Below are positions 2,333-18,192 of a DNA stretch of 43,528 bases, piece after piece. A program made the position numbers and the translations under genes. The stretch is from positions 1 through 43,528 of the forward strand of contig JASEGR010000016.1 in NCBI GenBank assembly GCA_030017955.1, written 5' to 3'. Every line of letters starts with the position of its first letter. Position 1 is the stretch's first letter. The notes beneath the pieces are model-generated. The model saw only the letters and a list, made by a program, of their open reading frames with translations, did no database searches and was not told the DNA's origin. The DNA comes from Candidatus Eisenbacteria bacterium. GTDB lineage: Bacteria; Eisenbacteria; RBG-16-71-46; JASEGR01.

Positions 2333-3241
2333 ATGAATAAGCATCTAACCTTTTTTCCGATTCTGGTCTTTTTATGGGCAGCTTTTCTCCCGGCAGAAGT
2401 CCGAGGAGGTAACGGTGTTCTCGGGGTGGAAGTCTGCAGAGGCTGTCATGAGGACCGCTACGCAAACTATTCGATGTCCACACACGCCCAAAAAGGAATC
2501 CCGAATAGTCCAGCCAGCAAGGATGGGTGCGAATCTTGCCACGGGCCGGGGGCTGCCCATGTGGAGAAAAGCGGCGAAAGAGGCGTGGGGATATTTATTT
2601 TTGGCAAGAGGATCGCAGATGCCACGGAGAAGTCTGCAAAATGCCTAGCCTGTCACGGTGAACAGAAAGACCTGTCCTTCTGGGACATAGGTAAGCACAA
2701 GGCCCAAGGTGTTTCTTGTGACAACTGCCATACGGTTCATTCCGGCACGCGGAAGAATCTGAAAGCCCCCGAGCCCGACCTCTGCAATATCTGCCATCGG
2801 AGCATACGATCCCAGGAAAACAAGCAGTCCCACCATCCCATAAGAGAAGGGAAAATGAAATGCACGGACTGCCACGATCACCACGGAGGTTTTGGCCAGA
2901 AGATGATCAAGGCGAACGAAGTGAATGAACTCTGCTACAACTGTCATGCAGAAAAAAGAGGTCCCCATATGTGGGAACATCCTCCGGTGGAAGAGAATTG
3001 CCTGAGCTGTCATACCCCGCACGGGAGCAATGTTTCCAAACTTCTGGTCAGCAGAGTCCCGCTGCTTTGCCAAAGCTGTCACGACTGGACTCGACATCCG
3101 GGGACGATCTACACCAGTTTTGAGACTTTCCAGGGAGCTACTCCTTCAAACAAGATGTTTGCCCGAAATTGTCTGAATTGCCACACAACAATTCATGGAA
3201 GCAACGCCCCGTCCACAAGAGGCGAAAGACATGTACGATAA
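2333..3241 (+). CDS. DmsE-type decahaem c-type cytochrome
   Basis: 302 residues with a signal peptide (about residues 1-25) and exactly ten CxxCH motifs, with first cysteines near residues 35, 66, 104, 129, 151, 177, 201, 223, 246 and 280. Size, haem count and the barrel gene next door fit the DmsE/MtrA-like family, which carries electrons across the periplasm into an outer-membrane porin. The start follows AGAGGGGG. It is separated by 12 bases from the MtrB-like gene, so the two are surely co-transcribed. No terminal reductase and no CymA-type quinol dehydrogenase is in the window, so the electron donor and acceptor are unknown; extracellular metal or DMSO-like acceptors are inferences from the family. 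Confidence 0.9.
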   Translation: MNKHLTFFPILVFLWAAFLPAEVRGGNGVLGVEVCRGCHEDRYANYSMSTHAQKGIPNSPASKDGCESCHGPGAAHVEKSGERGVGIFIFGKRIADATEKSAKCLACHGEQKDLSFWDIGKHKAQGVSCDNCHTVHSGTRKNLKAPEPDLCNICHRSIRSQENKQSHHPIREGKMKCTDCHDHHGGFGQKMIKANEVNELCYNCHAEKRGPHMWEHPPVEENCLSCHTPHGSNVSKLLVSRVPLLCQSCHDWTRHPGTIYTSFETFQGATPSNKMFARNCLNCHTTIHGSNAPSTRGERHVR

Positions 3242-3253
3242 GGGAGAAAGTCA

Positions 3254-5368
3254 ATGAGGTCGAAGATATTTGTTTGCGCCATGATTTCCGGCGTGATCGT
3301 GTTCTCGAGTGTTTCTGCTCAAGAGAAAAAATCTGAGACAGAGGCTTCGGTTACCTGGATCACTCCGGAAACGGATGGACAGAGGGGCAAATTCAATGAG
3401 TACCGGGATATCAAGGATGGAGTCTATGTCGGGGTCGAGACCAGGTTTGACAAGGAGAAATACTATCTGGATTTCAGGGCCAAGGATGTAGGGTACAAGA
3501 CTCAGAGGCACGACCTTGAAGGCAGGAAATGGGGAAAGCTTGGCTTTTTCCTCCAGTACAACGAGCTTCCTCACAACCTCACTTACGGAGCAACGAGCTT
3601 CTACACGGGAGTCGGAGGGGCCAACCTGACTTATGTCTCACCGACTCCGGCCAACGGATCGCCGAACAAAGACATATCTACCTGGACCGCTTTTGACTAC
3701 TCCACGGAGAGAAAAAACTACGGGGGAGGCCTTAGACTGGAAATGCTGAAACCGTTCTTTCTTGATGCCTCACTCAACAGGGAAGAAAGAAGTGGAGTAT
3801 ATCCGGTCGGAGTCGCGGGGACCAGTCCGGGAGGTCCTGCCATTGAGCTTCCCGCACCGACCAGCTACGTGACCGACGATTTGAAGCTGGAAGCCGGATA
3901 TGCCAGGAACCCCTTCTTCGTTTCGCTCAGCTACATTCACAGCAATTTCAAGAACAACAACTCTGAATTGGTTTTTGTCAACCCGTCAACCAAGAATACG
4001 GCGGCGACCAGCGATACGTTTATGCTCCCGCCAAGTAACGATTGTGACAAACTGGGCCTGAGCGGCGCGGTCAAGCTCCCATTTCGAAGCAAGCTCAGCT
4101 TCAACGCAACTTCTTCGAATACGCAGTCCCACGTCAACCTTCTTACCTCCTACGTGGCAGATGTCACCGGCGGAAGAACCTCTGTCACTTCTTTGCGCAA
4201 ATACGTTTTCGATGGGAAGACAGACACCAGAAGTTACAGATCTACGTTCACTTCCAGTCCGTTCTACTTCCTGGATGGAAAGGTGTTCTACAAATACTAC
4301 AACAGGGAGAATAAGTCAGACAGCATAAGGACAACAGTCGGAACAACGACTTTGGTCAACCACTTGTTTGATTATCGAAAGGCCGGCTACGGAGCAGAAC
4401 TAGGTTTCAAATTACCGGCGAGTTTCTACTTCACAACATCTTACACCCACGGCCGCATCGAGAGGGAGGAAAGGGACGATATCCCCACAAACACAGACGA
4501 CACCTACGGGACTGAACTGCGATGGGGCGGATCGGATTTCATGGTGGCCAGGATGGGTTATGAGAGGCTAGTGAGAAGAGGAGCTTTCGTGGGACGGACA
4601 GTCACAGGTGCCACGGATGCCGCCAATATCGAACGGTATCAAAGACGGTTTGATGCGGCCCCCAGAGACCGGAATGCCTACAAGGCCATGTTAGATGTCT
4701 TTCCAACGGAGAACGTCAATATCAACCTGGGGTACAGATACAAAGATACGAAGCACAAAGAGACGATCCTTGGGGTGCGGAGCGACAAAAGGAATGAATT
4801 CAACGTGGATGGGGATTACCTGATCGCAAAGAGAGTGAGACTTTTTGCCTACGTCGATTACGAGCACGCCAAGATTGATCAACAGGAAAGACGGTTCGAT
4901 ACTGGAACGAACGCCGATCCTGGAGGAAGCTCGGATTCCCTTTCTTACACGTGGCAAGTTGCTCAAATAGAATCAAACTATGGCTATGGAATAGGGACAG
5001 ACGTTCACATCCTTCCACAGAAGCTGGCTCTGAAGTTGCAGCACAGCTCTTCCAAATCGGATGGAAGCGCTGATTATACCATCGCCTTTCTTCGTGTTGG
5101 GAGAACGCAGGACAACATAGATATCTCCAACTGGGGAAGATACAGGACAAGGTATTATCTGGGCGAGTTGACGTATAACCTCACAAAAACCTTGTCCTTT
5201 GGTGCCGGCTACATCTACACGGTATTTGCTTCCGACGACGCACAGTACAGCGGATACAAGTTTCTATATCCCGCGGGGTCAACGAACGGCAATTTTCTGA
5301 CCGGAGCGTACGCGGACTTGACCTATAAGGCGAACATCGTGTACTTCAGTGTTGCATATCGGCCATGA
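3254..5368 (+). CDS. MtrB/PioB-family decahaem-associated outer-membrane barrel
   Basis: 704 residues with an N-terminal signal peptide ending near SVSAQ. The rest is strongly amphipathic beta-strand sequence rich in Y, F, R and D, typical of a large outer-membrane barrel. The N-terminal region (EYRDIKDGVYVG..., YLDFRAKDVGYKTQ) resembles MtrB/PioB proteins, which wrap a decahaem cytochrome to pass electrons across the outer membrane. The CxxC seen near the N-terminus of Shewanella MtrB is not present. Adjacency to the ten-haem cytochrome is the strongest support. No MtrC/OmcA-like surface cytochrome follows. Confidence 0.88.
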   Translation: MRSKIFVCAMISGVIVFSSVSAQEKKSETEASVTWITPETDGQRGKFNEYRDIKDGVYVGVETRFDKEKYYLDFRAKDVGYKTQRHDLEGRKWGKLGFFLQYNELPHNLTYGATSFYTGVGGANLTYVSPTPANGSPNKDISTWTAFDYSTERKNYGGGLRLEMLKPFFLDASLNREERSGVYPVGVAGTSPGGPAIELPAPTSYVTDDLKLEAGYARNPFFVSLSYIHSNFKNNNSELVFVNPSTKNTAATSDTFMLPPSNDCDKLGLSGAVKLPFRSKLSFNATSSNTQSHVNLLTSYVADVTGGRTSVTSLRKYVFDGKTDTRSYRSTFTSSPFYFLDGKVFYKYYNRENKSDSIRTTVGTTTLVNHLFDYRKAGYGAELGFKLPASFYFTTSYTHGRIEREERDDIPTNTDDTYGTELRWGGSDFMVARMGYERLVRRGAFVGRTVTGATDAANIERYQRRFDAAPRDRNAYKAMLDVFPTENVNINLGYRYKDTKHKETILGVRSDKRNEFNVDGDYLIAKRVRLFAYVDYEHAKIDQQERRFDTGTNADPGGSSDSLSYTWQVAQIESNYGYGIGTDVHILPQKLALKLQHSSSKSDGSADYTIAFLRVGRTQDNIDISNWGRYRTRYYLGELTYNLTKTLSFGAGYIYTVFASDDAQYSGYKFLYPAGSTNGNFLTGAYADLTYKANIVYFSVAYRP

Positions 5369-5411
5369 TCGAATCCTGGAGAATGTATGGACTCTGGCCA
5401 AAGGGGGAAAT

Positions 5412-6362
5412 GTGAGACGGGAATACTCATGGAATTCCAAGTCTGTGCTCCCATTAATACTGGGGATTATCTGGAGTGTGGGCGGGTGTGCAGCGGGAAA
5501 GTGGGGCTATATCGATTCATCGGATAAGATGGTTATCGTTCCGCACTATGACGATGCCACCCCCTTCACCGAAGGCCTGGCTGCCGTAAAAGTCGGTGAA
5601 AAGTGGGGCTATATTGACAAGGCAGGCAAGTTCATCATCGAGCCCCAATTCATAGAAGCCTGGCGTTTTCGTGAGGGATTGGCTGCCGTGCTAAGCGGGG
5701 ACAAGTGGGGCTTCATCGACACCAAAGGAAAGTTTGGAATCCCGCCTCAATTCGAGGATGCTGCTTCGTTTGCCGAGGGACTTGCACCCGTCGAAGTCGG
5801 GGGCAAATGGGGGTATATCGACAAGGCCGGAAAGTTTGCCATCCAGCCGCAGTTCGATTACGCCTGGCTCTTCTCCGAGGGGCTTGCCGAAGTGAAGCTT
5901 GGGGAGAAGTGGGGTTTCATCGATAGATCAGGACAGGTCGTTGTCAAACCTGAATATACCGGAGTATTGTCTTTTTCCCAGGGGCTGGCCGGGGTGATAA
6001 TCGGCAGTAAGCGTGGCTTCATCGATAAAAAGGGCCAAACCGTAATCAAACCGCAATTCGACAATGTCCTGTCTTTCTCCGAGGATTTGGCACCGGTGAA
6101 ACGTGAAAACAAATGGGGGTACATAGACAAGAGCGGGAAAATCGTCATTGAGCCCCAATTTGAGCGGGCTTTCCCCTTTCATGAAGGATTGGCTTCCGTA
6201 AAACTCGATTACAAGTGGGGCTACATCTTCAACACGGGACAATTCGCCATCCGGCCAAAATATGACGGCGCCTTCCCGTTCAGCGATGGGCTGGCCATCG
6301 TGAGAAAGGGACGGGCCACAGGTTATGCTGACAAGACCACAAAGTACATGAGGATTCTATAG
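5412..6362 (+). CDS. WG-repeat lipoprotein
   Basis: 316 residues from a GTG at 5412, which has AAAGGGGGAAAT directly upstream; the longer frame overlaps the barrel gene. A hydrophobic signal ends in VGGC (Cys26), a plausible lipobox. The mature protein is made almost wholly of eight or nine WG repeats with the core KWGYID-K-G-K-I-PQF-A-F-EGLA-V, the last ones degenerate (KRGFID, ATGYAD). WG repeats are short beta-rich modules of unclear function, often exported. Position at the end of the cytochrome/barrel operon suggests an envelope role linked to that conduit, but this is only inferred from context. Confidence 0.85.
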   Translation: MRREYSWNSKSVLPLILGIIWSVGGCAAGKWGYIDSSDKMVIVPHYDDATPFTEGLAAVKVGEKWGYIDKAGKFIIEPQFIEAWRFREGLAAVLSGDKWGFIDTKGKFGIPPQFEDAASFAEGLAPVEVGGKWGYIDKAGKFAIQPQFDYAWLFSEGLAEVKLGEKWGFIDRSGQVVVKPEYTGVLSFSQGLAGVIIGSKRGFIDKKGQTVIKPQFDNVLSFSEDLAPVKRENKWGYIDKSGKIVIEPQFERAFPFHEGLASVKLDYKWGYIFNTGQFAIRPKYDGAFPFSDGLAIVRKGRATGYADKTTKYMRIL

Positions 6363-6522: not shown

Positions 6523-7362
6523 CTATGGTGATATCTGCTCTCTCCGTCCAGTTGACCTAAGTCGAAAGACGGAGGCGATCATCGCTACGAGAAAGACGAT
6601 TCCAAACGTACACACGATCGCCGCACCGGTAGGCAGATCGAATGCCGCTGAGAAAAAGAGTCCTGCAAGGCTGGCAATTATGCTCACGCCCCATCCTAAA
6701 AGTAATTGGGTCCGAAGCCTGGACGACAAGAGCATTGCGCACGCGGCAGGGACCACGAGATAGGAGAAGATGAGCAGAACACCTGCGACTTCCACTGACG
6801 ATGTTACAACCACCCCAAGGGAAACATAGAAAAGAAAATCCCACCACGTGATTGAGAGACCCTGTCTTTCGGCCAGGTCTGGCTCTATTGAGATCGTGAG
6901 AAAGGGCTTTCTGAAAGCGACATGAAACAGGCCAATGACGCCGCAAATAATTGCCAGCCTTATCACATCCTGCCAACCAGCGAAGAGGATATTGCCGACA
7001 AGCATGTGTTTGATATGTTCCATTTCCGAAGGGCTTCGGCTCAGGACGATTATCGATGCGGAGGTCGTGACCACGTATACGATGCCGATAACCGCCTCCT
7101 GAGGGACGCTTTTCCCCTTGAGGCGCGTAAGGGCAAAAATTGCAGCACCGGCCAGAGCAAAGGCGAACGAAAACAAATACGCCGGTGCAGTATGCAACCC
7201 CACACCAAGGAGTATTCCGATCATAGCGCCCAGCGCTGCAATCTGCGCCAGTGCCAGATCTACAAAGATCACTTGGCGTTCAATAATGTGGATGCCTAGA
7301 TAGGCATAGATCCCGCTGAGGACTGCGCACAGGACAAACGGTATCACCATTAGCTCGAACAT
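6523..7362 (-). CDS. metal ABC transporter permease (ZnuB/MntB family)
   Basis: 279 residues from the ATG at 7362, preceded by AGGAGGTG; the longer frame is rejected. About eight hydrophobic segments are visible. The motif LALAQIAALGAMIG near the N-terminus and EVAGVLLIFSYLVVPAACAM in the C-terminal half are typical of ABC-3 permeases for zinc or manganese. It overlaps or abuts the binding-protein gene, whose stop lies at 7373. No ATP-binding subunit is encoded next to it. The metal cannot be told from the permease alone. Confidence 0.88.
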   Translation of the reverse strand: MFELMVIPFVLCAVLSGIYAYLGIHIIERQVIFVDLALAQIAALGAMIGILLGVGLHTAPAYLFSFAFALAGAAIFALTRLKGKSVPQEAVIGIVYVVTTSASIIVLSRSPSEMEHIKHMLVGNILFAGWQDVIRLAIICGVIGLFHVAFRKPFLTISIEPDLAERQGLSITWWDFLFYVSLGVVVTSSVEVAGVLLIFSYLVVPAACAMLLSSRLRTQLLLGWGVSIIASLAGLFFSAAFDLPTGAAIVCTFGIVFLVAMIASVFRLRSTGRREQISP

Positions 7363-7372
7363 GCCACACCTC

Positions 7373-8290
7373 CTATCGCGGAGCCTGGAGCGCGTCTGTA
7401 AGTCGGGCGATGTCATTGTCGAGAAGATCTATGTAAGTGTCTGTTCCCTCGAGCCCGCCGACCGAGGGAGCCAGTACCGCAACTCTTGCGGCAGCCTTTG
7501 ACGCGATTGACTGGGCAGTTCTCAGGTTGAAATATGGCTCCATGACTATGACTCTTACATTCTCGGCCTTCATCTTGCCAACGAGCGAGGCGATATGCGA
7601 CGGCGTCGGCGGTATGCCCGGTTTTGGTTCTACGAATCCGACGATAACGAGCCCGAAACATTGCGCAAAATAGGGCCATGAATTGTGATATGCGACGATT
7701 TTTGCGCCCCGATACGGCTTCAACCGTTCTTTCCATCTGTGAATCGCCGCATCGAGCCTTTTAGCATACTCTTCGTGATTCTTTCTGAAGTAATCAGCGT
7801 TCGAAGGGCTTATCTCGCACATCTTGGCGAGTATAGAGCTAAGAATGGGCTTGGCATTTTCAGGGCTGATCCAGTAGTGCGGGTTGCCATAGATATGTAT
7901 GTCGCCCATACGGCTGTCTATCCTGCCTTCCGGGATTTCCAGCTTGACAATAGGCAACGATGCATCAAGGTAACCTTTAGCCCCCTCCATAACGCTGGGA
8001 TTTCGTGCTGCGTCAATAAGGCTTTCTACCCACTGATCAAGATCCATTCCCACTCGAATAAGTAGGTTTGTCTTTTTGAGTTGCACGACCATCGAAGGCC
8101 GCGGCTCAACCGCATGTGGGTCCTGATCACCGCGGGAGAGGCTGGTGACGACTACACGATCCATGCCGATGTTCCTTGCAAAGTCAGCCATATCGGACGT
8201 CGTGGTGACTATTCGCAGTCTGCTATCTCCGTGGGCAACACCTGCCGTTAAAGCCGCTGCCGAAATCATGGCTATCAATAACCGAGTCAT
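7373..8290 (-). CDS. metal ABC transporter substrate-binding protein (ZnuA/TroA-like)
   Basis: 305 residues with a signal peptide (1-21). It has the cluster A-I binding-protein pattern: VTTTSDMADFARNIG at the start, GDQDPHAVEPRPS with His59, GNPHYWISPENA with His138, a third His in VAYHNSWPYF, and EPKPGIPPTPSHI before the C-terminal lobe. These residues normally form the Zn or Mn site. The long histidine-rich loop of many ZnuA proteins is absent. It lies between the permease and the outer-membrane protein genes, with gaps of about 10-15 bases, indicating one operon. Confidence 0.88.
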   Translation of the reverse strand: MTRLLIAMISAAALTAGVAHGDSRLRIVTTTSDMADFARNIGMDRVVVTSLSRGDQDPHAVEPRPSMVVQLKKTNLLIRVGMDLDQWVESLIDAARNPSVMEGAKGYLDASLPIVKLEIPEGRIDSRMGDIHIYGNPHYWISPENAKPILSSILAKMCEISPSNADYFRKNHEEYAKRLDAAIHRWKERLKPYRGAKIVAYHNSWPYFAQCFGLVIVGFVEPKPGIPPTPSHIASLVGKMKAENVRVIVMEPYFNLRTAQSIASKAAARVAVLAPSVGGLEGTDTYIDLLDNDIARLTDALQAPR

Positions 8291-8304
8291 TGTGTTCCCT
8301 CCCT

Positions 8305-9372
8305 CTACTGGAGTGGGTGACTATGCGGACCAATGCCGAATACGAGTTGGAGTGTTGCCTCATGTGCTCCGCTCGATGGTGCATATCCGTATTGAAGCCG
8401 TATCCTCGTTGTCTCGGTGAAACGATACCCGCCTACCGTTGAAACCATGGAGCCGGTTTTCCTTTGTGGGAAGGCATTCTCAGACCAGTCATACCTGAAT
8501 CCACCATCCCAATGCTTGTTGAACTGGAACCCGAGAAAACTCCAGAGGCCCAACCGTTCAATCCGTCCCACCGGGACTTTACGAATCAGGTGCACTATTT
8601 CATTCTGGAAGATCACCCTTTGATAGTTTGACAACCACATTCTCGTGGTCAGGTCGGCTCCGCCGATCATTACGTCATCCTGGTGTTCAAGATAGTGTGA
8701 GCCGTTACCTTTTGCGCCGCTAGCACCCATCTCGAGCTCCACCCTGTCACCCAACCGAAACCCCGCCCACATTCGACCGGTGTGAACTCGTCCGGCGGGC
8801 GAGAATTCCGTTGATTCTTCGGGCTCAGTGTCTCCCTCCTCATGGACATGACCTGCCGGAATCCACCATGTACCCGTATTCACCTCAAGAAAGAACGGCA
8901 GGGGAAAAAGGTAACCAAGCGTGACCCCCTCCCCCACAAAGCCGTGAGGTCCGAAGAAATTCGTAAGCGCAAGCGGCTGATCCACAAAGGGGCGTTCGTG
9001 CTGATGTATCTTGTTCAGTTTGCCAAAGTCGATGTGGATTCTTCCCGCTTTGAGGCCGAGCCCGTCAGCGAAAAAACGCAGGGAACTGACCAATGCCTCG
9101 CAGATTTCTGGTTCGAACGTATCTCCGTGACGGTGCATCGCCAGAAACACATCGGCTCGCATCTCCGGATACAGATACCCCTGGAGAGCAAGCTCTATCC
9201 CTCTGATAGTCACTCTGTTTCTACCTGCGGAGACTAAGTCGTTTGACGTCTGCGCGGATATGTCTCCTATGACGCTGATGTCGGGAAGATCTGTAGCCGC
9301 CGCATACACAGATACAGGTGGGAAAGCAATTAGAATCAAGAAGAGAACCGTTACATTCTTCATATTACTCAT
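8305..9372 (-). CDS. histidine-rich outer-membrane beta-barrel protein, probably metal-related
   Basis: 355 residues from the ATG at 9372, chosen for GGAGGAATTGACT upstream. A signal peptide ends near VSVYA. The mature part alternates polar and aromatic residues as in porins (LKAGRIHIDFGKLNKIHQHERPF, GYRFTETTRIRLQYGYAP). Clusters of His and acidic residues (MHRHGD, HQHE, HVHEEGDTEPEE, GPHSHP) suggest metal contact. It is the first large gene of an operon with a zinc/manganese-type binding protein and permease, so it may be the outer-membrane entry route for the same metal. There is no TonB box or plug domain that I can see. The family name is not certain. Confidence 0.65.
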   Translation of the reverse strand: MSNMKNVTVLFLILIAFPPVSVYAAATDLPDISVIGDISAQTSNDLVSAGRNRVTIRGIELALQGYLYPEMRADVFLAMHRHGDTFEPEICEALVSSLRFFADGLGLKAGRIHIDFGKLNKIHQHERPFVDQPLALTNFFGPHGFVGEGVTLGYLFPLPFFLEVNTGTWWIPAGHVHEEGDTEPEESTEFSPAGRVHTGRMWAGFRLGDRVELEMGASGAKGNGSHYLEHQDDVMIGGADLTTRMWLSNYQRVIFQNEIVHLIRKVPVGRIERLGLWSFLGFQFNKHWDGGFRYDWSENAFPQRKTGSMVSTVGGYRFTETTRIRLQYGYAPSSGAHEATLQLVFGIGPHSHPLQ

Positions 9373-9533
9373 AGTCAATTCCTCCGTTCGGGAACTAAAT
9401 AGCATCACCACGCGGCGACCACGGGACACAGGAGAAAATTCCGGCTCACAGGCTCTTGCCAGCCATCAGCAATCGGCTGACACGGCAAGGCAGAGCCATA
9501 GGACCGCACACGAATCTGGAATTGGGAAAAATG

Positions 9534-10193: not shown

Positions 10194-10676
10194 ATGAAAC
10201 CGACCTCGGAGACTCACGACAATAAGCTTTGGCAGAAAGAACTGCAACATCGAATGAATTACCTCAAGGAACGATTCACACGTTCCGGCGTTAAGCTAAC
10301 GCACCAGCGCCTGGAGATTTTCCGCGAGGTAGCGATATCCGTTGACCATCCGGATGCAGAGACGATTTGCAAGGGCGTTCGCGAAAGAGTCCCCACGGTG
10401 TCGCTGGACACGGTGTATAGAACACTATGGTCGCTGCTGGATCTCGGGATCATAACCACCATAGGACCTCCTCGCGGGAGAATGCGATTTGACGCGAATA
10501 TGGGTTCTCACCATCACTTCATCTGCACGAAGTGTGGAATGACCCGTGACTTTTGCAGCAAGCAGTTTGACCAATTGAAGATTCCGGACACTGCGAAGAT
10601 GTTGGGAAGAGCGGAAAAGACGCAAGTGGAAGTCAGAGGCGCTTGTTTGAGATGTTCGAAGAAGAAGGGCAAATAA
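10194..10676 (+). CDS. Fur-family metalloregulator, PerR-like
   Basis: 160 residues. The winged helix is clear (LTHQRLEIFREVAIS, VPTVSLDTVYRTLWSLLDLGII). It is followed by RFDANMGSHHHFICTKCG and a C-terminal CLRC, the two CxxC pairs of the structural zinc site. RFD before the His cluster and DF after the first CxxC pair place acidic residues as in PerR, which senses peroxide through Fe/Mn. A zinc-sensing Zur role is the alternative, because zinc/manganese uptake genes lie just upstream in the opposite direction. No Shine-Dalgarno precedes the first ATG; an internal ATG at 10254 also lacks one. Confidence 0.85.
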   Translation: MKPTSETHDNKLWQKELQHRMNYLKERFTRSGVKLTHQRLEIFREVAISVDHPDAETICKGVRERVPTVSLDTVYRTLWSLLDLGIITTIGPPRGRMRFDANMGSHHHFICTKCGMTRDFCSKQFDQLKIPDTAKMLGRAEKTQVEVRGACLRCSKKKGK

Positions 10677-10799: not shown

Positions 10800-10886
10800 A
10801 TGCTTCGCGAGGCGCAGGGCGAGCCGGTCGAAATCATTTCCGAATTGGAGAGCCAAGATCGGCTCTTACAGGGATCGTCAGGATGA
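10800..10886 (+). CDS. possible 28-codon ORF coupled to the sigma-54 activator gene
   Basis: A short frame (MLREAQGEPVEIISELES...) starts behind GAGGGGAG and ends in a TGA that overlaps the ATG of the next gene (ATGA). The activator gene has no strong Shine-Dalgarno of its own, so translational coupling is plausible. The peptide matches no family known to me and could instead be a gene remnant. The rest of 10677-10799 shows no gene. Confidence 0.3.
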   Translation: MLREAQGEPVEIISELESQDRLLQGSSG

Positions 10887-12265
10887 GGAAACGCAAGAAG
10901 ATCAGGAAGCCCGCCGTCTTGACACCGGAGGAAACTATTCTCGAGAGCATCTCGGACGGTGTTTTCACGGTGGATCTGGATTGGCGCGTCACATCGTTCA
11001 ACCGGGCTGCCGAAGACATCACAGGTGTGGTGCGCTCGGAGGCGATGGGTCGGCGCTGCTCCGAGGTATTCCGCTCCAGTATGTGCGGCGCCGGCTGCGC
11101 TCTTCAGCGAACGCTCAAAACGGGTAAACCCATCATCGGCAAGTCCGGGTACATCATCGACGCGGACGAGAACCGCATTCCCATCAGCATCTCCACGGCC
11201 GTGTTGCGGGATACCGAAGGCCGCGTGGTCGGTGGAGCGGAGACCTTCCGGGACCTGTCTGAGGTTGAGGCCTTGCGCCGGGAACTCGAGGGTCGATTCC
11301 GAGTTGGCGACCTCGCAAGCCGCAGCCCTCTGATGCAAAGGGTATTCGAGGCCGTGCCCGTCATTGCCGTCAGTCCCAGTACGGTCCTTATTCTCGGGGA
11401 AACCGGGACGGGCAAGGAACTGATAGCGCGTACTATTCACGAGCTTAGCCCACGGCGGGACGGCCCATTCATACCGGTCAATTGCGGGGCATTACCGGAT
11501 ACTCTTCTCGAATCCGAACTCTTCGGCTACAAGGCTGGCGCGTTCACAGGGGCAAACAAGGACAAGCCTGGACGGTTTGCCATGGCACGGGGTGGGACTC
11601 TGTTCCTCGACGAGATCGGCGACGTGAGTCCGGCGCTCCAGGTGAGGCTCCTGCGGGTACTGCAAGACCATAGGTATGACCCGCTCGGAGCGACCCGCTC
11701 CGAGACGGCGGACGTCAGAGTCATCGTTGCCAGCAACAGGGATTTGGCGGTACAGATGCGCAAGGGTGCATTCCGGGAGGACCTCTACTACCGCGTGAAT
11801 GTGCTTCGCGTGGAGCTGCCACCACTTCGACGGCGCAAGGAGGATATCCCGCTTCTGGTAGATCAGTTCATTGAGAGATTCAACCGTCTGCAGCGTAAGT
11901 CTATCCAGGGGATCGCGGCCGAGACGCTTTCCTTGCTCATGGCTTATGATTGGCCCGGCAACGCGCGCGAACTGGAGAATGTCATCGAACGATCATTTGT
12001 CATCTGCCAGCAAGGTCTCATCGGCATCGGGCATCTGCCCGAGGAGTTGACGGCGCACAGCATGACGACAGGCGCGGACCTTAGCGTGCGATCAGCCCAC
12101 GATCTTGTTGACGCCCAAGCAATACGCGCCGCCCTGGATCGAAACCGCTGCAATCGGTCCGCTGCGGCCAGGGAGCTTGGCATTCACAAGACCACGCTCT
12201 TCCGCAGGATAAAGAAGCTGGGCATTTCCCTTCCCAGGCGGAACGGCCGCTCCCCCCAAGAATAG
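10883..12265 (+). CDS. PAS-AAA+-Fis sigma-54-dependent activator
   Basis: 460 residues. A PAS domain (about 15-125) carries cysteines at 59, 68 and 72 (CSEVF...MCGAGC), suggesting redox or metal sensing. The AAA+ domain (about 140-375) has Walker A GETGTGKE at 172, the sigma-54 contact loop GAFTGA at 219, Walker B GGTLFLDEI at 237, and arginine-finger region REDLYYRVNVLRVELPPLRRR. A Fis-type HTH closes the protein (NRSAAARELGIHKTTLFRRIKKLGI). It activates RNA polymerase holding sigma-54 from upstream sites. A near-consensus -24/-12 promoter and a perfect palindrome stand just downstream, before the first NifX-like gene, so the adjacent cluster is the likely target. Confidence 0.93.
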   Translation: MRKRKKIRKPAVLTPEETILESISDGVFTVDLDWRVTSFNRAAEDITGVVRSEAMGRRCSEVFRSSMCGAGCALQRTLKTGKPIIGKSGYIIDADENRIPISISTAVLRDTEGRVVGGAETFRDLSEVEALRRELEGRFRVGDLASRSPLMQRVFEAVPVIAVSPSTVLILGETGTGKELIARTIHELSPRRDGPFIPVNCGALPDTLLESELFGYKAGAFTGANKDKPGRFAMARGGTLFLDEIGDVSPALQVRLLRVLQDHRYDPLGATRSETADVRVIVASNRDLAVQMRKGAFREDLYYRVNVLRVELPPLRRRKEDIPLLVDQFIERFNRLQRKSIQGIAAETLSLLMAYDWPGNARELENVIERSFVICQQGLIGIGHLPEELTAHSMTTGADLSVRSAHDLVDAQAIRAALDRNRCNRSAAARELGIHKTTLFRRIKKLGISLPRRNGRSPQE

Positions 12266-12294
12266 TAGCGTCAGTGCACCTGGCCTTGCCTCCC

Positions 12295-12316
12295 ACAGTA
12301 GCAATCTTACTACTGT
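12295..12316 (+). promoter_or_regulatory. palindromic activator-binding site (putative UAS)
   Basis: ACAGTAG and CTACTGT flank an 8-base centre. The site lies about 85-105 bases upstream of the -24/-12 promoter, the normal distance for an enhancer-binding protein, and next to the gene for such a protein. Recognition by that protein is inferred. Confidence 0.6.
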
Positions 12317-12400
12317 ATAGCCCAAAACTATCCCCTCAATGAGATTCATAACTCTCTATCTTTCAATGTATTGTCGCGGATTCCACGGCTCGTCTCATCC

Positions 12401-12415
12401 TGGCACGACAAATGC
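12401..12415 (+). promoter_or_regulatory. sigma-54 (-24/-12) promoter
   Basis: CTGGCACG is followed by ACAA and ATGCT. The GG and GC pairs have the exact 10-base separation, and only one position (A for T in TTGC) differs from the TGGCACG-N4-TTGC consensus. Transcription would start near 12427, with the Shine-Dalgarno and ATG 12452 just downstream. Confidence 0.8.
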
Positions 12416-12451
12416 TTTCCTTCGCTAGAGAAGGACGAACGGGAGAATCGG

Positions 12452-13078
12452 ATGATGAAAGCGGCATTCGCAGCCTGGAACAATCGAATCGCGCCGGTCT
12501 TCGATGTGGCGGGCCAGATTCGCCTTGTGGAGACCGAGGACGGACAGGTTGTCCGCGAGACGCAAGAGACGATCACAGACGATCTGCCAGCTCAGAAGGC
12601 ACTTCGTCTTGCAGAACTGGGCGTCGGCATCCTGGTTTGCGGTGCGATATCTAAACCCTTGCATGAAATGGTCGCTGCCTACGGCATCCGGGTTGTTCCT
12701 TTCATGGCCGGCAGCCTGCAAGAAATCATCGGGGCTTGGCTCACTGGGGACCTTGATTGGAATGTCTTTGCAATGCCGGGCTGCTGCGGGCGAAGGCGGC
12801 TCGGGGGAACGTATGGCCTACACCGGGAGGATTACGTTATGAACGGAAGAAAAGGTGGTGGGATGGAACAAGGCGGGGACCGGGGTCAGGGCGGAGGAGG
12901 CGGTCGAGGTCAGGGGCGAGGTGGACAAAGACCCGGTCGGATGGGGGGCCCCAAAGCCGCCGGACCGACCGGTACCTGCGTGTGCCCTAAATGCGGGCAG
13001 AGGGAACCACACGAACGTGGTGTACCCTGCGTCGAGCGTAAGTGTCCGAAGTGCGGGGCCGCGATGAGCAGGGAATAG
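12452..13078 (+). CDS. NifX-like cofactor-binding protein with Gly-rich linker and zinc ribbon
   Basis: 208 residues from ATG 12452, chosen for GGGAG six bases upstream. The first about 110 residues form a DiNase_FeMo-Co/NifX-like domain (MKAAFAAWNNRIAPVFD, LAELGVGILVCGAISKPLHEM, YGIRVVPFMAGSLQEIIGAW). A run of about 45 residues rich in G, R and Q follows. The C-terminus has two paired CPKC motifs (CVCPKCG-REPHERGVPC-KCPKCGAAM), a zinc ribbon or rubredoxin-like knuckle. NifX-like proteins hold Mo-Fe or Mo-Cu sulfide clusters or their precursors. It is the first gene behind the sigma-54 promoter. It need not mean nitrogen fixation, since no nif structural genes are present. Confidence 0.85.
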   Translation: MMKAAFAAWNNRIAPVFDVAGQIRLVETEDGQVVRETQETITDDLPAQKALRLAELGVGILVCGAISKPLHEMVAAYGIRVVPFMAGSLQEIIGAWLTGDLDWNVFAMPGCCGRRRLGGTYGLHREDYVMNGRKGGGMEQGGDRGQGGGGGRGQGRGGQRPGRMGGPKAAGPTGTCVCPKCGQREPHERGVPCVERKCPKCGAAMSRE

Positions 13079-13109
13079 CAGTCAATCTTTGAGAGAGGAG
13101 GATACGAAA

Positions 13110-13496
13110 ATGCCAGGAGGAGATCGAACCGGACCGATGGGAATTGGCCCAATGACCGGCCGCTCGGCCGGGTACTGCGTAGGTTTCGGAATGCCTGGGT
13201 ACGCGAATCCAATGCCAGGATGCGGTTCCGGCATTGCCTTCGGACGCGGGCGAGGCTCTTGGGGCTTCGGCGGCGGTGGACGTGGATGGCGGCATTGGTT
13301 CTACGCCACTGGTCAGCCGGGATGGTTGAGGTTTGGTTCCTACGCCATGCCTCACGGATACCCGATGCCGTACCAGCAGCCTGACCCGGAAACGGAGAAG
13401 AAGGTGCTGAAGAACCAAGCCGATGCCTTGCAGTCGGAACTGGACTTCATCAAGAAGTGTCTCGATGAAATCGAAACGAGAACCGCGGCGGAATGA
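13110..13496 (+). CDS. DUF5320-type Gly-rich small protein
   Basis: 128 residues from ATG 13110 behind GAGGAGG. The N-terminus MPGGDRTGPMGIGPMTGRSA is the hallmark of DUF5320 proteins. A central Gly/Trp/Tyr-rich part follows, then a short coiled coil near 95-125 (EKKVLKNQADALQSELDFIK). Such proteins regularly accompany NifX-like and MinD-like ATPase genes in orange-protein-type operons; no biochemical role is known to me. One cysteine pair (YC, GCGSG) could bind a metal. Confidence 0.82.
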   Translation: MPGGDRTGPMGIGPMTGRSAGYCVGFGMPGYANPMPGCGSGIAFGRGRGSWGFGGGGRGWRHWFYATGQPGWLRFGSYAMPHGYPMPYQQPDPETEKKVLKNQADALQSELDFIKKCLDEIETRTAAE

Positions 13497-13593
13497 ACGC
13501 CACCTGCCCGCCTCAGACAGATTGAAGCCAATCCAGTAACGGACGCAGAATGGAGGAGATCAAGACCGCCTACAATTGAATGAGGGGGTGACA

Positions 13594-13965
13594 ATGAAAA
13601 TCATCTTCACAACTTCGGGTAATAATCTGAATGGCCCGTTGGACAGCCGGTTTGGCCGGGCCCCCAAGTTTCTCGTTTACGATCTGGATAGCGAGAACTT
13701 CGAGGTGGTGGACAACCAGCAGAACCTGAACGCGGCTCAGGGGGCGGGAATCCAATCGGCGGAAACCGTGGCCAGGTTGGGAGCGAAAGCGCTCGTGACC
13801 GGGCATTGCGGCCCGAAAGCGTTTCGTGTGCTCCTGGCGGCCGGAATCAAGATTTTCAACACCGATTCCCCCACGGTGGCCGTGGCTCTTGAGCGATACC
13901 GCGCGGGGAAACTAACCGAGGCAAAGGCCGCTGACGTTGAAGGGCATTGGGCTAAGCGTGGTTGA
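13594..13965 (+). CDS. NifX/NifB-type dinitrogenase-cofactor family protein
   Basis: 123 residues from ATG 13594, preceded by GAGGGGGTGACA. A single DiNase_FeMo-Co domain: MKIIFTTSGNNLNGPLDSRFGRAPKFLVYD at the start, NAAQGAGIQSAETVARLGAKALVTGHCGPKAF in the middle. The GHCGPKA segment, next to the ligand region in the family, carries a Cys. It is the closest of the three paralogues to a classical one-domain ORP/NifX protein that carries a metal-sulfur cluster. The next ATPase start is 90 bases away, with a short overlapping frame between. Confidence 0.88.
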   Translation: MKIIFTTSGNNLNGPLDSRFGRAPKFLVYDLDSENFEVVDNQQNLNAAQGAGIQSAETVARLGAKALVTGHCGPKAFRVLLAAGIKIFNTDSPTVAVALERYRAGKLTEAKAADVEGHWAKRG

Positions 13966-14059
13966 ACTGGTGCGCCGCGAAGGCAATGTGCTTCATCTTG
14001 GCGGGGAAACGGCTCGACAACGCGGCCGTCGGGGTTACGCGGGCGGTGGCACCTCATGA
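13958..14059 (+). CDS. possible 33-codon coupling ORF
   Basis: A GTG-started frame (VVELVRREGNVLHLGGETAR...) overlaps the end of the NifX-like gene by eight bases and stops in TGA, overlapping the ATG of the ATPase gene (ATGA). No family recognised. It could be a real coupling peptide or a chance frame in GC-rich DNA. Confidence 0.2.
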   Translation: MVELVRREGNVLHLGGETARQRGRRGYAGGGTS

Positions 14060-14910
14060 TTCTTGCGGTCGCTTCAGGCAAGGGCGGAACCGGCAAGACG
14101 ACGGTCTCCCTTAACCTGGCAAAGGCGCTTGGCTCTCCCGTGCAGCTTCTGGACTGCGACGTGGAAGAGCCGAATTGCCACCTGTTTCTCAGGGGCACCA
14201 CACGCGAAGCGGAAACCGTCAGCATTCCGGTCCCGCAAGTCGATGAATCCCTTTGCGACGGTTGCGGTGAGTGCGGCCGTTTCTGCGCATACCACGCCAT
14301 CGTCTCATTCGGGACCGAGACGCTCGTCTTCCCCGAGATATGTCACGGCTGCGGGGGATGCGCGATGGTATGCCCCAAGAAGGCCATTCACGAAGCTGAT
14401 AACCGCATAGGAGTTGTCGAGACGGTCCAGGCGGAGAACATCACTCTGATCCAGGGGCGACTTGACGTCGGTGTGGCCATGGTCCCACCTCTCATCCGCG
14501 CGGTGAAGGCTCGACTGAGAAAAGGCGCGCCCGCAATCCTGGACGCGCCTCCGGGAACGTCATGCCCGGTGATCGCGACACTCCGGGGAGCGGATTTCGT
14601 CGTGCTCGTCACAGAGCCGACGCCCTTCGGCCTGCACGATCTGAAACTGGCCGTGGATATGGTGCGCGAACTCCGAATTCCGTTAGGCGTGGTCGTCAAC
14701 CGGGTTGGGATCGGCGATGGCCGGGTGCATGCGTTCTGCGTGAAGAAAGACATTCCCATTCTCCTGGAAATTCCGGATGACCGGCGGATCGCCGAAACGT
14801 ATTCCCGCGGCGGGCTCGTTGTTGATGCGCTTCCGGAGTATCGGAGATCATTTGTCTCTCTGTCTTCCACGTTGGATCATTGGGCAACACATAGCGAAAA
14901 GAAGTACTGA
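14056..14910 (+). CDS. MinD/ParA-type ATPase with two inserted 4Fe-4S sites (ORP-cluster type)
   Basis: 284 residues. It has a deviant Walker A SGKGGTGKTT at 7-16 and DCDVEEPN at 33-40. A ferredoxin insert carries two complete CxxCxxCxxxC motifs (Cys67-70-73-77 and 96-99-102-106). The DAPPGTSCPVIATLRGADFVVLVTEPTPFG switch region follows. Proteins of this kind (CobQ/MinD superfamily with P-loop and ferredoxin) occur in pairs in orange-protein operons, where they form a complex with the NifX-like protein. ATP-driven delivery or assembly of a metal-sulfur cluster is the likely role, by family inference. Confidence 0.9.
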   Translation: MILAVASGKGGTGKTTVSLNLAKALGSPVQLLDCDVEEPNCHLFLRGTTREAETVSIPVPQVDESLCDGCGECGRFCAYHAIVSFGTETLVFPEICHGCGGCAMVCPKKAIHEADNRIGVVETVQAENITLIQGRLDVGVAMVPPLIRAVKARLRKGAPAILDAPPGTSCPVIATLRGADFVVLVTEPTPFGLHDLKLAVDMVRELRIPLGVVVNRVGIGDGRVHAFCVKKDIPILLEIPDDRRIAETYSRGGLVVDALPEYRRSFVSLSSTLDHWATHSEKKY

Positions 14911-15025
14911 TAGGGGATGACTGCACAAAGACTATGCTTCGGTATGGCGCGGTGATAAGGGTGCCTGATTCCGCCGGCCATACTGAAAGAAAAACGACAA
15001 CGATCAGGTGATTCAGGAGGATACC

Positions 15026-16210
15026 GTGGACGCAAAGCATCTCGGCATAAATTCAAAGCTGGTCCATGCAGGAATGGCGAAGGATCCCTTTGGGAGCGTC
15101 GTCACTCCAATATACCAAACGTCGACTTTTTCGTTCGACAACGCCCAGAACGGCGCGGATCGGTTTTCGAAGAAAGTGGACGGGTATATCTACACGAGGA
15201 TCGGGAATCCCACCATTGCCGCCTTGGAGAAGTGCGTGGCGCAGCTTGAAAGAGGCGTTGGGGGCGTCGCAACGAGCTCCGGCATGAGTGCTGTGACGAC
15301 GGCGTGCCTTGCCTTGCTGCAGCAGGGCGACCATGCAGTAAGCACCGCATCGGTGTACGGTCCTTCCCGCACATTGATGGAAAAGCATCTTTCGCGATTC
15401 GGGGGGCGATCAACCTTCGTGGATACTTCTGATGCGGAAAACGTCCATCATGCCCTACGGGCGGAAACGAGGCTAATCTATGTCGAAACCCCGTCGAACC
15501 CAATGATGCAAATCACGGATATTCAAGCCATGGCCGATCTCGCTCATGCCCACGGGGCACTGCTTGCGGTGGACAGCACATTTGCATCGCCTTGCCTGCA
15601 ACAGCCATTGGTTCTTGGCGCCGACGTGGTGTTGCATTCCGTCACCAAGTTTATCAACGGGCATGCGGATGTGGTGGGGGGAATTCTGGTGGCGCGGACG
15701 GATGAAATCCATTGCCGGCTCCGGGAAATCATGATCCTGACGGGATGCAACATGGATCCGCATCAGGCGTATCTTGTACACCGGGGGCTGAAAACCCTTT
15801 CGCTCCGGGTGGAGCGCTCCCAGAAGAACGCTCAAATTCTCTCCCAATGGCTCGAGTCGCGGCCGGAAATCTCTTGGACAAGATATATCGGGCTGCCATC
15901 CCATCCACAGCACGAACTTGCGAAAAAGCAGATGCTGGGATTCGGCTCCATGATCAGTTTTGAAATGCGCGGGGGCCTCGACGCAGGACGGCGATTGATG
16001 GACAGGCTGAGATTGGCCACGCTTGCCGTTTCACTGGGCGGCGTGGAGACACTGATCGAACATCCGGCATCCATGACCCATGCCGGAATACCGCAGCAAG
16101 AAAGGGAGGCCGTCGGCATTTCAGATGGTTTGGTCCGCCTTTCGGTTGGGATCGAGGATGTCGAGGATCTCATCGAGGATCTCCGCCAGGCCTTTGACAG
16201 CAGGCAGTAG
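15026..16210 (+). CDS. gamma-family PLP enzyme (methionine gamma-lyase/cystathionine-lyase type)
   Basis: 394 residues from GTG 15026, which has AGGAGGATACC upstream. Clear Cys/Met metabolism fold: YTRIGNPT at 56-63, SSGMSAV at 84-90, ETPSNP at 154-159 and the PLP lysine in HSVTKFINGH (Lys208). The enzymes cleave or exchange sulfur amino acids, releasing methanethiol or H2S, or forming cystathionine. The active-site cysteine typical of methionine gamma-lyase (in YGCT) is replaced here by Pro in VYGPSRTLM, so strict methionine gamma-lyase activity is uncertain. It lies between the two Fe-S ATPase genes, so a role in supplying sulfide for cluster assembly is attractive but inferred. Confidence 0.88.
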   Translation: MDAKHLGINSKLVHAGMAKDPFGSVVTPIYQTSTFSFDNAQNGADRFSKKVDGYIYTRIGNPTIAALEKCVAQLERGVGGVATSSGMSAVTTACLALLQQGDHAVSTASVYGPSRTLMEKHLSRFGGRSTFVDTSDAENVHHALRAETRLIYVETPSNPMMQITDIQAMADLAHAHGALLAVDSTFASPCLQQPLVLGADVVLHSVTKFINGHADVVGGILVARTDEIHCRLREIMILTGCNMDPHQAYLVHRGLKTLSLRVERSQKNAQILSQWLESRPEISWTRYIGLPSHPQHELAKKQMLGFGSMISFEMRGGLDAGRRLMDRLRLATLAVSLGGVETLIEHPASMTHAGIPQQEREAVGISDGLVRLSVGIEDVEDLIEDLRQAFDSRQ

Positions 16211-16259
16211 CATCCCGCCCCACAATGATGAATGCAAATACATGAATGAAGGAATGCAC

Positions 16260-17144
16260 ATGAAGGAACTCGTTATCATCAGCGGCAAGGGAGGGACGGG
16301 CAAGACCAGTGTAACGGCGTCGTTCGCTGTGCTTGCAAACCGGCCGGTTATAGCAGACTGTGACGTAGATGCGGCAGACTTGCACTTGGTTCTGGCGCCC
16401 GATGTCATCCGCCGCGCAAAATTCACCGGAGGCAAAAAAGCAAGGATCAAACCCGGTCATTGCATTGCCTGTGGCAAACGCGAGGAACTCTGTAACTTCG
16501 ATGCAATTACTTTCGACGGTCACGGCAACGGCCGGGTGGACAAAACCTTCCGTATCGATCCCATCGGCTGCGAGGGCTGCGGCGTCTGCGCGTGGTTCTG
16601 TGCAGAGAATGCGATAGAATTTGGCCCGGTGGTTAACGGTGAATGGTATGTTTCAAGAACACGCTGTGGTCCCATGGTTCACGCCCGACTGGGCGTGGCA
16701 GCCGAGAACTCCGGCAAACTGGTCTCCACGGTCCGCCGGGAAGCCCTCCGTATCGCCGAGGAGGAACATCGTTCTCTGATCATCGTGGACGGTCCGCCCG
16801 GGATCGGTTGCCCCGTCATCGCCTCGGTGACCGGCGCAACGCTGGTGCTGGTTGTCACGGAGCCCACAGTTTCCGGGGAACACGATTTGGAGAGGGTTCT
16901 TTCCCTGACGCGGCATTTCAACATTCCAACCGCGATCTGTGTGAACAAATGGGACCTCAACCCCGAGATGACGGACCGCATTGAGGACAAGGCGCGCCAG
17001 GCGGGCGCGCAGATCGCGGGCCGTATCCGGTATGACCACGGCGTGACATTGGCCCAGATGCGGGAGCGGGCGGTAGTGGAAACCGAAGCGCCATCCGCAA
17101 AGGATATTAGACAGCTATGGGACCATCTTGCCTGTTGGGTGTGA
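16260..17144 (+). CDS. second MinD-type ATPase with ferredoxin insert, one Cys ligand missing
   Basis: 294 residues from ATG 16260 behind GAAGGAA (ATG 16254 and 16242 are also in frame). Walker A SGKGGTGKTS at 8-17, DCDVDAAD at 33-40, DGPPGIGCPVIASVTGATLV as switch region, and NKWDLNP. The insert has C68-IA-C71-GKREEL-C78, so the usual third Cys (position 74) is Arg. The second motif, C104-EG-C107-GV-C110-AWF-C114, is complete. The first cluster, if present, would have three Cys ligands and an open iron site. It is the partner of the ATPase at 14056 in an ORP-type cluster. The spacing from the PLP gene is 49 bases. Confidence 0.9.
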   Translation: MKELVIISGKGGTGKTSVTASFAVLANRPVIADCDVDAADLHLVLAPDVIRRAKFTGGKKARIKPGHCIACGKREELCNFDAITFDGHGNGRVDKTFRIDPIGCEGCGVCAWFCAENAIEFGPVVNGEWYVSRTRCGPMVHARLGVAAENSGKLVSTVRREALRIAEEEHRSLIIVDGPPGIGCPVIASVTGATLVLVVTEPTVSGEHDLERVLSLTRHFNIPTAICVNKWDLNPEMTDRIEDKARQAGAQIAGRIRYDHGVTLAQMRERAVVETEAPSAKDIRQLWDHLACWV

Positions 17145-17159
17145 CATACGGGAGGCGTC

Positions 17160-17219
17160 ATGGCATCTAAGCCTGGAATGGATGGAGATTCATATCGGCG
17201 GGGGAGAATAATTGATTAA
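17160..17219 (+). CDS. possible 19-codon ORF
   Basis: ATG behind GGGAGGCGTC, ending in a TAA that overlaps the TTG start of the TauE/SafE fragment. No homology recognised; probably a remnant or coupling frame. Confidence 0.2.
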   Translation: MASKPGMDGDSYRRGRIID

Positions 17220-17421
17220 CCTCGCGTTGGTTCTGACCGCCGGTCTGTTGGCCGGTGTGCTGGGAGGTCTACTAGGAATCGGCGGCGGCACCGTTCTCGT
17301 GCCCGGGCTTTCGTTCACCACTACGCGGCGACCCCAACGGCTGAGATCATCCGCAACATCGTCAATTACATTGCGGTGTTGGACGGAGTCAAAGCTGCCG
17401 AAGAGACGGCGAACCCCATGA
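17212..17421 (+). pseudogene. truncated TauE/SafE (TSUP) membrane protein fragment
   Basis: From TTG 17212 (Shine-Dalgarno GGGGGAG) the first about 35 residues are the N-terminus of a sulfite/sulfonate-exporter-like protein (LALVLTAGLLAGVLGGLLG then IGGGTVLVPGLSF). After that the frame becomes low-complexity Arg/Ser sequence. Another frame over 17310-17420 reads HYAATPTAEIIRNIVNYIAV, then LDGVKAAEETANP, which looks like the tail of a different protein. This is a fusion scar between two truncated genes. An intact TSUP has about 250 residues and 7-8 helices. Confidence 0.7.
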
Positions 17422-17441
17422 CAAGTAAGGAGGAAAAACCC

Positions 17442-17780
17442 ATGAGAATTGCGATTCCGTTGGCGGATGGAATACTCTCGACGCATTTCGGACACTGCGA
17501 GCATTTTGCCCTCGTTGATGTGGACACCGCAACGAAAAAACTTGTCAGGCGGGAGGACATCCATGCGCCTCCACATCAGCCAGGGCTGCTGCCTCCCTGG
17601 CTGGCGGAGCGCGGCGCGACCATAATCATCGCCGGTGGCATGGGTCAGCGCGCTCAAGGATTGTTCACCGAATGTGGCATTCAGGTTTTGGTGGGAGCAC
17701 CTGCAGAAACGCCGGAAAAGCTAATCTCTGATTACCTTACAGGCACACTCGGTGTTGGAGAGAATGTCTGTGACCACTGA
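17442..17780 (+). CDS. NifX-like protein, third paralogue
   Basis: 112 residues from ATG 17442 behind AGGAGG. DiNase_FeMo-Co fold: MRIAIPLADGILSTHFGHCE at the start (Cys in FGHCEHFALVDV), HAPPHQPGLLPPWLAERG and ATIIIAGGMGQRAQGLFTE in the middle. The FGHCE and HQPG...AGGMG features match ORP-like proteins of sulfate reducers that bind metal-sulfur clusters. It overlaps the thioesterase start by 17 bases. Three paralogues in one cluster suggest a set of carriers or scaffold subunits. Confidence 0.88.
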   Translation: MRIAIPLADGILSTHFGHCEHFALVDVDTATKKLVRREDIHAPPHQPGLLPPWLAERGATIIIAGGMGQRAQGLFTECGIQVLVGAPAETPEKLISDYLTGTLGVGENVCDH

Positions 17781-18192
17781 GGATCCCGAAAGCATCAGTG
17801 CCCGGAATGGCCATAGCCAATGTCTGTTCTGCGGACGAGAAAACCCCTGGTCACTCAAGCTCGCTTTCCGAGCTGATGGTGACGCCGTTAAGACTACTTT
17901 TCAGCCTCACCAATGGCTTCAGGGATATGATGGCATCCTCCACGGCGGGATAATCTCCGCGCTGCTCGACGCAGCCATGACGCACTGTCTTTTTCACAAT
18001 GGCATCCGAGCAGTCACGGGAGACCTGAGGGTGAGATTCTTGCAGCCAGTGTCCTGCCGGACCATCTTGGGGCTCAGAGCATGGATGCTGTCCGCCAAGC
18101 CGCCGCTGTACGGATTGAAAGCTGAGTTGACCTGTGAGGGACAGATCATGGCTTGGGCCGAAGCCAAGTTCATGCGCCAAGCAAGCCCTTGA
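17764..18192 (+). CDS. PaaI-like hotdog thioesterase
   Basis: 142 residues from ATG 17764 (GTG 17752 is an alternative). Hotdog-fold signature HGGIISALLDAAMTHCLF with the helix-leading His and acidic Asp. A Cys pair in QCLFCGRENPW resembles the N-terminal CFxCG element of small thioesterases. It would hydrolyse acyl-CoA or related thioesters; substrate unknown. It is translationally coupled to the NifX-like gene and ends the plus-strand cluster, facing the minus-strand TPR gene. Confidence 0.75.
   Translation: MSVTTEDPESISARNGHSQCLFCGRENPWSLKLAFRADGDAVKTTFQPHQWLQGYDGILHGGIISALLDAAMTHCLFHNGIRAVTGDLRVRFLQPVSCRTILGLRAWMLSAKPPLYGLKAELTCEGQIMAWAEAKFMRQASP

Follow-up and report, generated by a model that had tools for sequence, protein, structure and literature searches.

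A probable sigma-54-controlled orange-protein (ORP) operon of Candidatus Eisenbacteria with a built-in PLP enzyme and without the Mrp half of MrpORP

Roles in cell division and in Fe-S or thiometalate trafficking were proposed for the orange-protein (ORP) complex, studies of which are, to our knowledge, limited to a few sulfate reducers. Its subunit Orp8 carries an S2MoS2CuS2MoS2 cluster. In D. vulgaris the complex is composed of Orp3, Orp4, Orp5, Orp8 and Orp9, encoded in two divergent operons that are under sigma-54 control by DVU2106, and Fe-S clusters were shown to be transferred in vitro from MrpORP to Orp3-Orp4-Orp8 (PMC6345978; PMC3897727). For the DiNase domain of MrpORP the motifs HFGHCE and CDH were described by Pardoux et al. 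(PMC6345978). Here, a stretch of 43,528 nucleotides from a Candidatus Eisenbacteria genome (contig JASEGR010000016.1; referred to as the window) was analysed; the host genome is a 3.1 Mb MAG, 97% complete and distributed over 248 contigs. The window encodes a cluster that is an ordinary, widespread ORP system of anaerobes, and what is slightly unusual about it are a built-in PLP enzyme and the apparent loss of the Mrp ATPase.

The cluster spans positions 10883-18192. As listed in a first-pass annotation made from the letters alone, all of its genes are encoded on the forward strand, and they turned out to be complete and to match the families named there. The translation starts of the DUF5320 protein (13110), NifXb (13594), the PLP enzyme (GTG, 15026) and NifXc (17442) were corrected by the position of the Shine-Dalgarno sequence. 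The intergenic gaps within the run are small, with 49 bp between the PLP enzyme and ATPa. Since the scan for sigma-70 promoters stayed at chance level and the terminator scan gave no internal terminators above it, the continuity of the operon is judged by spacing and strand. Rfam and tRNA scans of the window were empty. The presence of rpoA and secY in the same window shows that the cluster is chromosomal.

Directly before the regulator of the cluster lies a gene for a Fur/PerR-type regulator (10194-10676), and Fur-like genes were also found near the ORP loci L059, L113, L146 and L148. Positions 6523-9429 encode an ABC-3 permease, a ZnuA-type binding protein and an outer-membrane-like protein of 374 aa without Pfam match; homologous trios sit downstream of the ORP clusters L051 (13675-16299) and L086 (16517-19105). 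At 2333-6362 the genes for a multiheme cytochrome (Paired_CXXCH), an MtrB/PioB porin and a WG-repeat protein lie in this order and likely encode an outer-membrane electron conduit. Elsewhere in the host genome a COX1-family protein (PF00115; G000:C53, L249) is encoded that may be an NO reductase or an oxidase and has no NCBIfam match at 1e-20, and a search of this genome for dsrA gave no match.

The ORP-type identity suggested by the first-pass annotation was borne out by searches against ORP and MrpORP proteins. NifXb (13594..13965), a PF02579 protein of the Orp8 type, has D. gigas ORP as its best solved relative (PDB 2wfb, E 1e-19). NifXc (17442..17780) contains a PF02579 DiNase domain with the HFGHCE and CDH motifs, and its sole NCBIfam match is the MrpORP model NF041136, of which it covers positions 265-365 of 365; with 128 bits it stays below the curated cut-off of 450 for membership in this family. 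ATPb (14056..14910), of the MinD/Mrp type, and ATPa (16260..17144), of the MinD type, are both MinD/CbiA ATPases with a deviant Walker A motif (GKGGTGKT) and ferredoxin inserts. Both 4Fe-4S motifs of ATPb are classical, whereas in ATPa a classical motif is accompanied by a less regular cysteine motif, i.e., the two ferredoxin motifs per ATPase known from ORP operons are present in both proteins. NifXa (12452..13078) combines a DiNase domain (PF02579) with a Gly/Arg linker and a Cys-rich tail of the CxxC type. A whole-genome search resulted in exactly three PF02579 matches, namely NifXa, NifXb and NifXc. The set is completed by a DUF5320 protein with a Gly-rich N-terminus and a C-terminal coil (13110..13496; 88 bits) and by a PaaI-like hotdog thioesterase (4HBT/PaaI; 17752..18192), the gene of which overlaps the NifXc stop. 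Judged by sequence, ATPa and ATPb would be the counterparts of Orp3/4, NifXb that of Orp8, NifXc that of the DiNase half of Orp9 and the regulator that of DVU2106. The Cys-rich tail of NifXa, often a separate match in related loci, might, as a guess, correspond to Orp5. A FeMo-co or nitrogenase-related NifX/NifY system would agree with the Pfam name of PF02579 only; it was rejected as highly improbable in view of the similarity of NifXb to D. gigas ORP and of NifXc to the MrpORP model, and because nitrogenase genes were not found in that part of the window which was annotated.

The proposed sigma-54 control is supported at several levels. The first gene of the cluster (10883..12265) encodes a DVU2106-like sigma-54 enhancer-binding protein (EBP) with PAS, Sigma54_activat and HTH_8 domains (PAS-AAA+-Fis) and the GAFTGA motif, and RpoN is encoded in the host genome. 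A -24/-12 promoter, TGGCACGACAAATGCT (12401..12416, forward strand), precedes NifXa by 35 bp and is, with one mismatch, the top match in the window. A relaxed version of the pattern occurs frequently, with 11 matches in the window compared to 6.2 expected; the site is convincing because of its position, which is conserved upstream of the same gene. The strict pattern, for which a hand calculation based on base counts gives about 0.002 chance matches per 300 bp, was found within about 130 bp upstream of NifXa in 20 of the 31 loci having both regulator and NifXa. A dedicated EBP and a sigma-54 promoter, as in described ORP operons, are thus both present. Moreover, Cys59, Cys68 and Cys72 of the PAS domain are invariant in all aligned regulators covering the site (30/30), making these three cysteines a candidate metal or redox sensor.

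To see how ordinary this core is, related loci were collected by a scan with ATPa, and the best 80 among the matches were listed. They span Acidobacteriota, Planctomycetota, Desulfuromonadales, Syntrophaceae, Krumholzibacteria, Aminicenantes, WOR-3, Marinimicrobia and others, so that the cluster is far from being specific to sulfate reducers. Among these best 80 listed loci both ATPases are present in all, NifX in 76, DUF5320 in 54 and PaaI in 25, and regulator, NifXa, NifXb, ATPb, ATPa and NifXc occur together in 29 loci from many phyla. The regulator, the three NifX proteins, DUF5320 and PaaI therefore belong to a common kit. The neighbourhood comparison thereby supports the placement among ORP loci, but it does not set the core of the window apart, and the suggestion that the locus is a variant with three cluster-binding proteins does not hold: three is the commonest number of NifX domains (27/80; three or more in 38/80), and the number of NifX proteins was rejected as a special feature. 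Frequent extras of related ORP loci, i.e., radical SAM, zinc ribbon, TrmO, DUF89/ARMT1, IscU-like and CGGC genes, are absent from the window cluster. In one related locus (L139 of G023, 12770-13468) fragments of a third ATPase resembling ATPa/ATPb, with an internal stop, lie between the ORP regulator and NifXa, and are possibly a decayed duplicate.

An MrpORP, i.e., an Mrp fused to a DiNase domain, is not encoded in the cluster; its DiNase half and a tail are left. Between ATPa and NifXc (17212-17441) the N-terminal fragment of a TauE/SafE permease (17212..17316; 30.9 bits, just below the curated cut-off of 32.6; E 2.8e-7) is followed by a remnant of the C-terminal tail of the Mrp P-loop domain and the MrpORP linker (17314..17441; 49% over 39 aa to the MrpORP of L074, E 7.7e-8). 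This remnant, AFVHHYAATPTAEIIRNIVNYIAVLDG in the NifXc frame, also resembles tail and linker of MrpORP from L041, L053 and others. Such a junction would result from a single deletion that starts within TauE and reaches the end of Mrp. Hence, either the Fe-S-delivering ATPase of the MrpORP at this locus is gone or there is an error in the assembly. An assembly chimera, with an artefactual Mrp loss and TauE/SafE junction and an intact MrpORP at this place in the true genome, appears rather unlikely to us: fragments of two unrelated genes are joined here in a MAG of many contigs, but a PF10609 search of the host genome resulted in one strong match, a stand-alone Mrp on another contig (C77; L154), and no further ORP-type Mrp was found. 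Furthermore, relatives show the same arrangement. Among the best 80 listed loci, 66 have a complete NifXc start, and Mrp is located within 160 nt upstream of it in 36 and not in 30; the class relatives G011 and G021 also encode NifXc without an upstream Mrp. The loss of Mrp is therefore not unique and the cluster is still called ORP-type; unusual at the window is the visible Mrp remnant rather than the loss.

The second particularity is the PLP enzyme (15026..16210, forward strand), the GTG start of which follows AGGAGG in a reading frame open from 15008. It matches PF01053 over the full length and contains the PLP lysine, and its closest relative in the PDB is the methionine gamma-lyase of C. 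freundii. However, the active-site Cys115 (C. freundii numbering) is replaced by Pro, the Lys-Asp pair and the CGL-type Glu are absent, and the scores are below the cut-offs of all NCBIfam models, those for methionine gamma-lyase (MGL) included. The MGL label was rejected on these grounds, and the protein is best described as a non-canonical MGL-like enzyme of a subfamily with the signature YGPSR and DPHQA. A second, distant PF01053 subfamily, forming one clade, was observed within ORP clusters, or close to them, in genomes of FCPU426 and of the Planctomycetota type (L070, 5726-6877; L040, 11830-12999; L112, 15672-16787); these genes were rejected as being the same enzyme due to their separate, distant clade in the tree.

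Close and more distant relatives of the PLP enzyme were selected by similarity to the window enzyme, not by neighbourhood, and up to about 10 kb were inspected on each side. Linkage to NifX or ORP genes was found in 10 of the 37 subfamily rows, in one of these (G244) to Mrp only, compared to none of 31 rows outside the subfamily. With the window excluded the ratio is 9/36 to 0/31 (Fisher p 0.002), a value that is only indicative, since it is inflated by the relatedness of the rows and some of the neighbourhoods are truncated by contig ends. The window enzyme belongs to a clade of eight rows (100% SH-aLRT). Three other members adjoin DUF134 and a DiNase protein in the order DUF134-NifX-(TrmO)-PLP (G023, G046, G343), with the PLP gene of G023 lying also about 3 kb from an ORP regulator, and one further member has a DUF134 remnant; FeoB is a neighbour at G034 and an Rrf2 regulator at G032. 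In further genomes, the gene orders ATPb-ATPa-PLP-NifXc-Mrp (G526) and Mrp-NifX-PLP (G530) were found, and in G165, G549 and G550 a distance of no more than about 8 kb separates the PLP gene from ORP genes. Within the phylum to which G165 belongs, the ORP-linked copies (G526, G530, G165) form one clade (100% SH-aLRT) apart from unlinked copies, and each of these three genomes carries copies of both kinds. In the one genome searched from the phylum of G047 nothing was found.

Since members of the subfamily are also found on their own, and in genomes without detected ORP ATPases (G046, G034, G032), the PLP enzyme cannot be regarded as an obligatory component of ORP systems. It could even be a metabolic passenger of a plain ORP operon, acting in sulfur amino-acid metabolism without any role in cluster assembly. 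In agreement with this, 27 of the 37 subfamily members are unlinked to NifX or ORP, the best 80 listed ORP loci do not have the subfamily at the position it takes in the window, and PF01053 enzymes are encoded in all control genomes, with two further strong ones in the host. However, the repetition of the linkage in at least three lineages, its restriction to the subfamily in the counts given above and the distinct clade of ORP-linked paralogues make a passenger somewhat improbable. It is plausible that the enzyme functions as a sulfur donor dedicated to ORP clusters; the designation as sulfur-mobilising enzyme thus gains independent support from the neighbourhoods, but not from the catalytic residues of MGL, which are missing. 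A broader reading, that the whole YGPSR/DPHQA subfamily of gamma-family PLP enzymes might be a dedicated DiNase/ORP sulfur donor that replaces or supplements cysteine desulfurases of the NifS/IscS type, with DUF134-NifX-PLP as an ORP-independent form, appears doubtful at present. The literature search gave no paper joining this PLP subfamily and the NifX/ORP family.

Taken together, we consider it reasonably probable that the locus is a sigma-54-controlled ORP operon of the Eisenbacteria class, with a co-transcribed PLP enzyme as sulfur donor and a deleted Mrp half. The PAS regulator would activate sigma-54-dependent transcription under anoxic or metal/sulfur conditions. By analogy to D. vulgaris, ATPa and ATPb might form a complex with NifXb carrying a metal-sulfide cluster. 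The PLP gene, placed between the genes for ATPb and ATPa, would be transcribed with them, and its product might act on a thio-amino acid and thereby provide the reduced sulfur from which the clusters on the NifX proteins are assembled. With the Mrp half of MrpORP, the usual Fe-S loader, deleted, this function would be lost or supplied in trans, and the stand-alone Mrp encoded on another contig may serve as replacement.

Compared to known systems, the locus is a known ORP system in a clade for which a description was not found, with one repeated and testable addition, the PLP enzyme, which by its recurrent linkage to NifX/ORP genes in several lineages is a concrete candidate for the ORP sulfur source. 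The suspicion that the cluster may not have been described in this lineage agrees with the searched literature, in which no paper on ORP in Eisenbacteria was found, but the full cluster is present in the same class in Candidatus Eisenbacteria Zod_Metabat.294 (L045). There, the gene order is the same and shared proteins are 56-78% identical; however, L045 has an intact MrpORP, and the place of the PLP enzyme is taken there by radical SAM and zinc-ribbon genes. With DVU2103-DVU2109 of D. vulgaris Hildenborough the window shares two ferredoxin-bearing MinD-type ATPases, an ORP-like NifX, the MrpORP DiNase domain and the sigma-54 EBP with its promoter. It differs in the common direction of its genes, which in D. 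vulgaris form two divergent operons, in the deleted Mrp domain and in the additional PLP enzyme, DUF5320 and PaaI, the latter two being common in relatives. Relative to MrpORP itself (Orp9/DVU2109, Dde3202; NF041136), NifXc retains both motifs of the DiNase domain, but the first Cys of CxHFGHCE is a Ser and the P-loop Mrp domain is missing except for the short C-terminal tail. NifXb resembles D. gigas ORP in sequence along the whole domain. Finally, the PLP enzyme keeps the PLP lysine, Tyr and Arg of the C. freundii L-methionine gamma-lyase (4mkk/2rfv), whereas Pro in place of Cys115, the lack of the Lys-Asp pair and a different clade in the tree separate the two enzymes.
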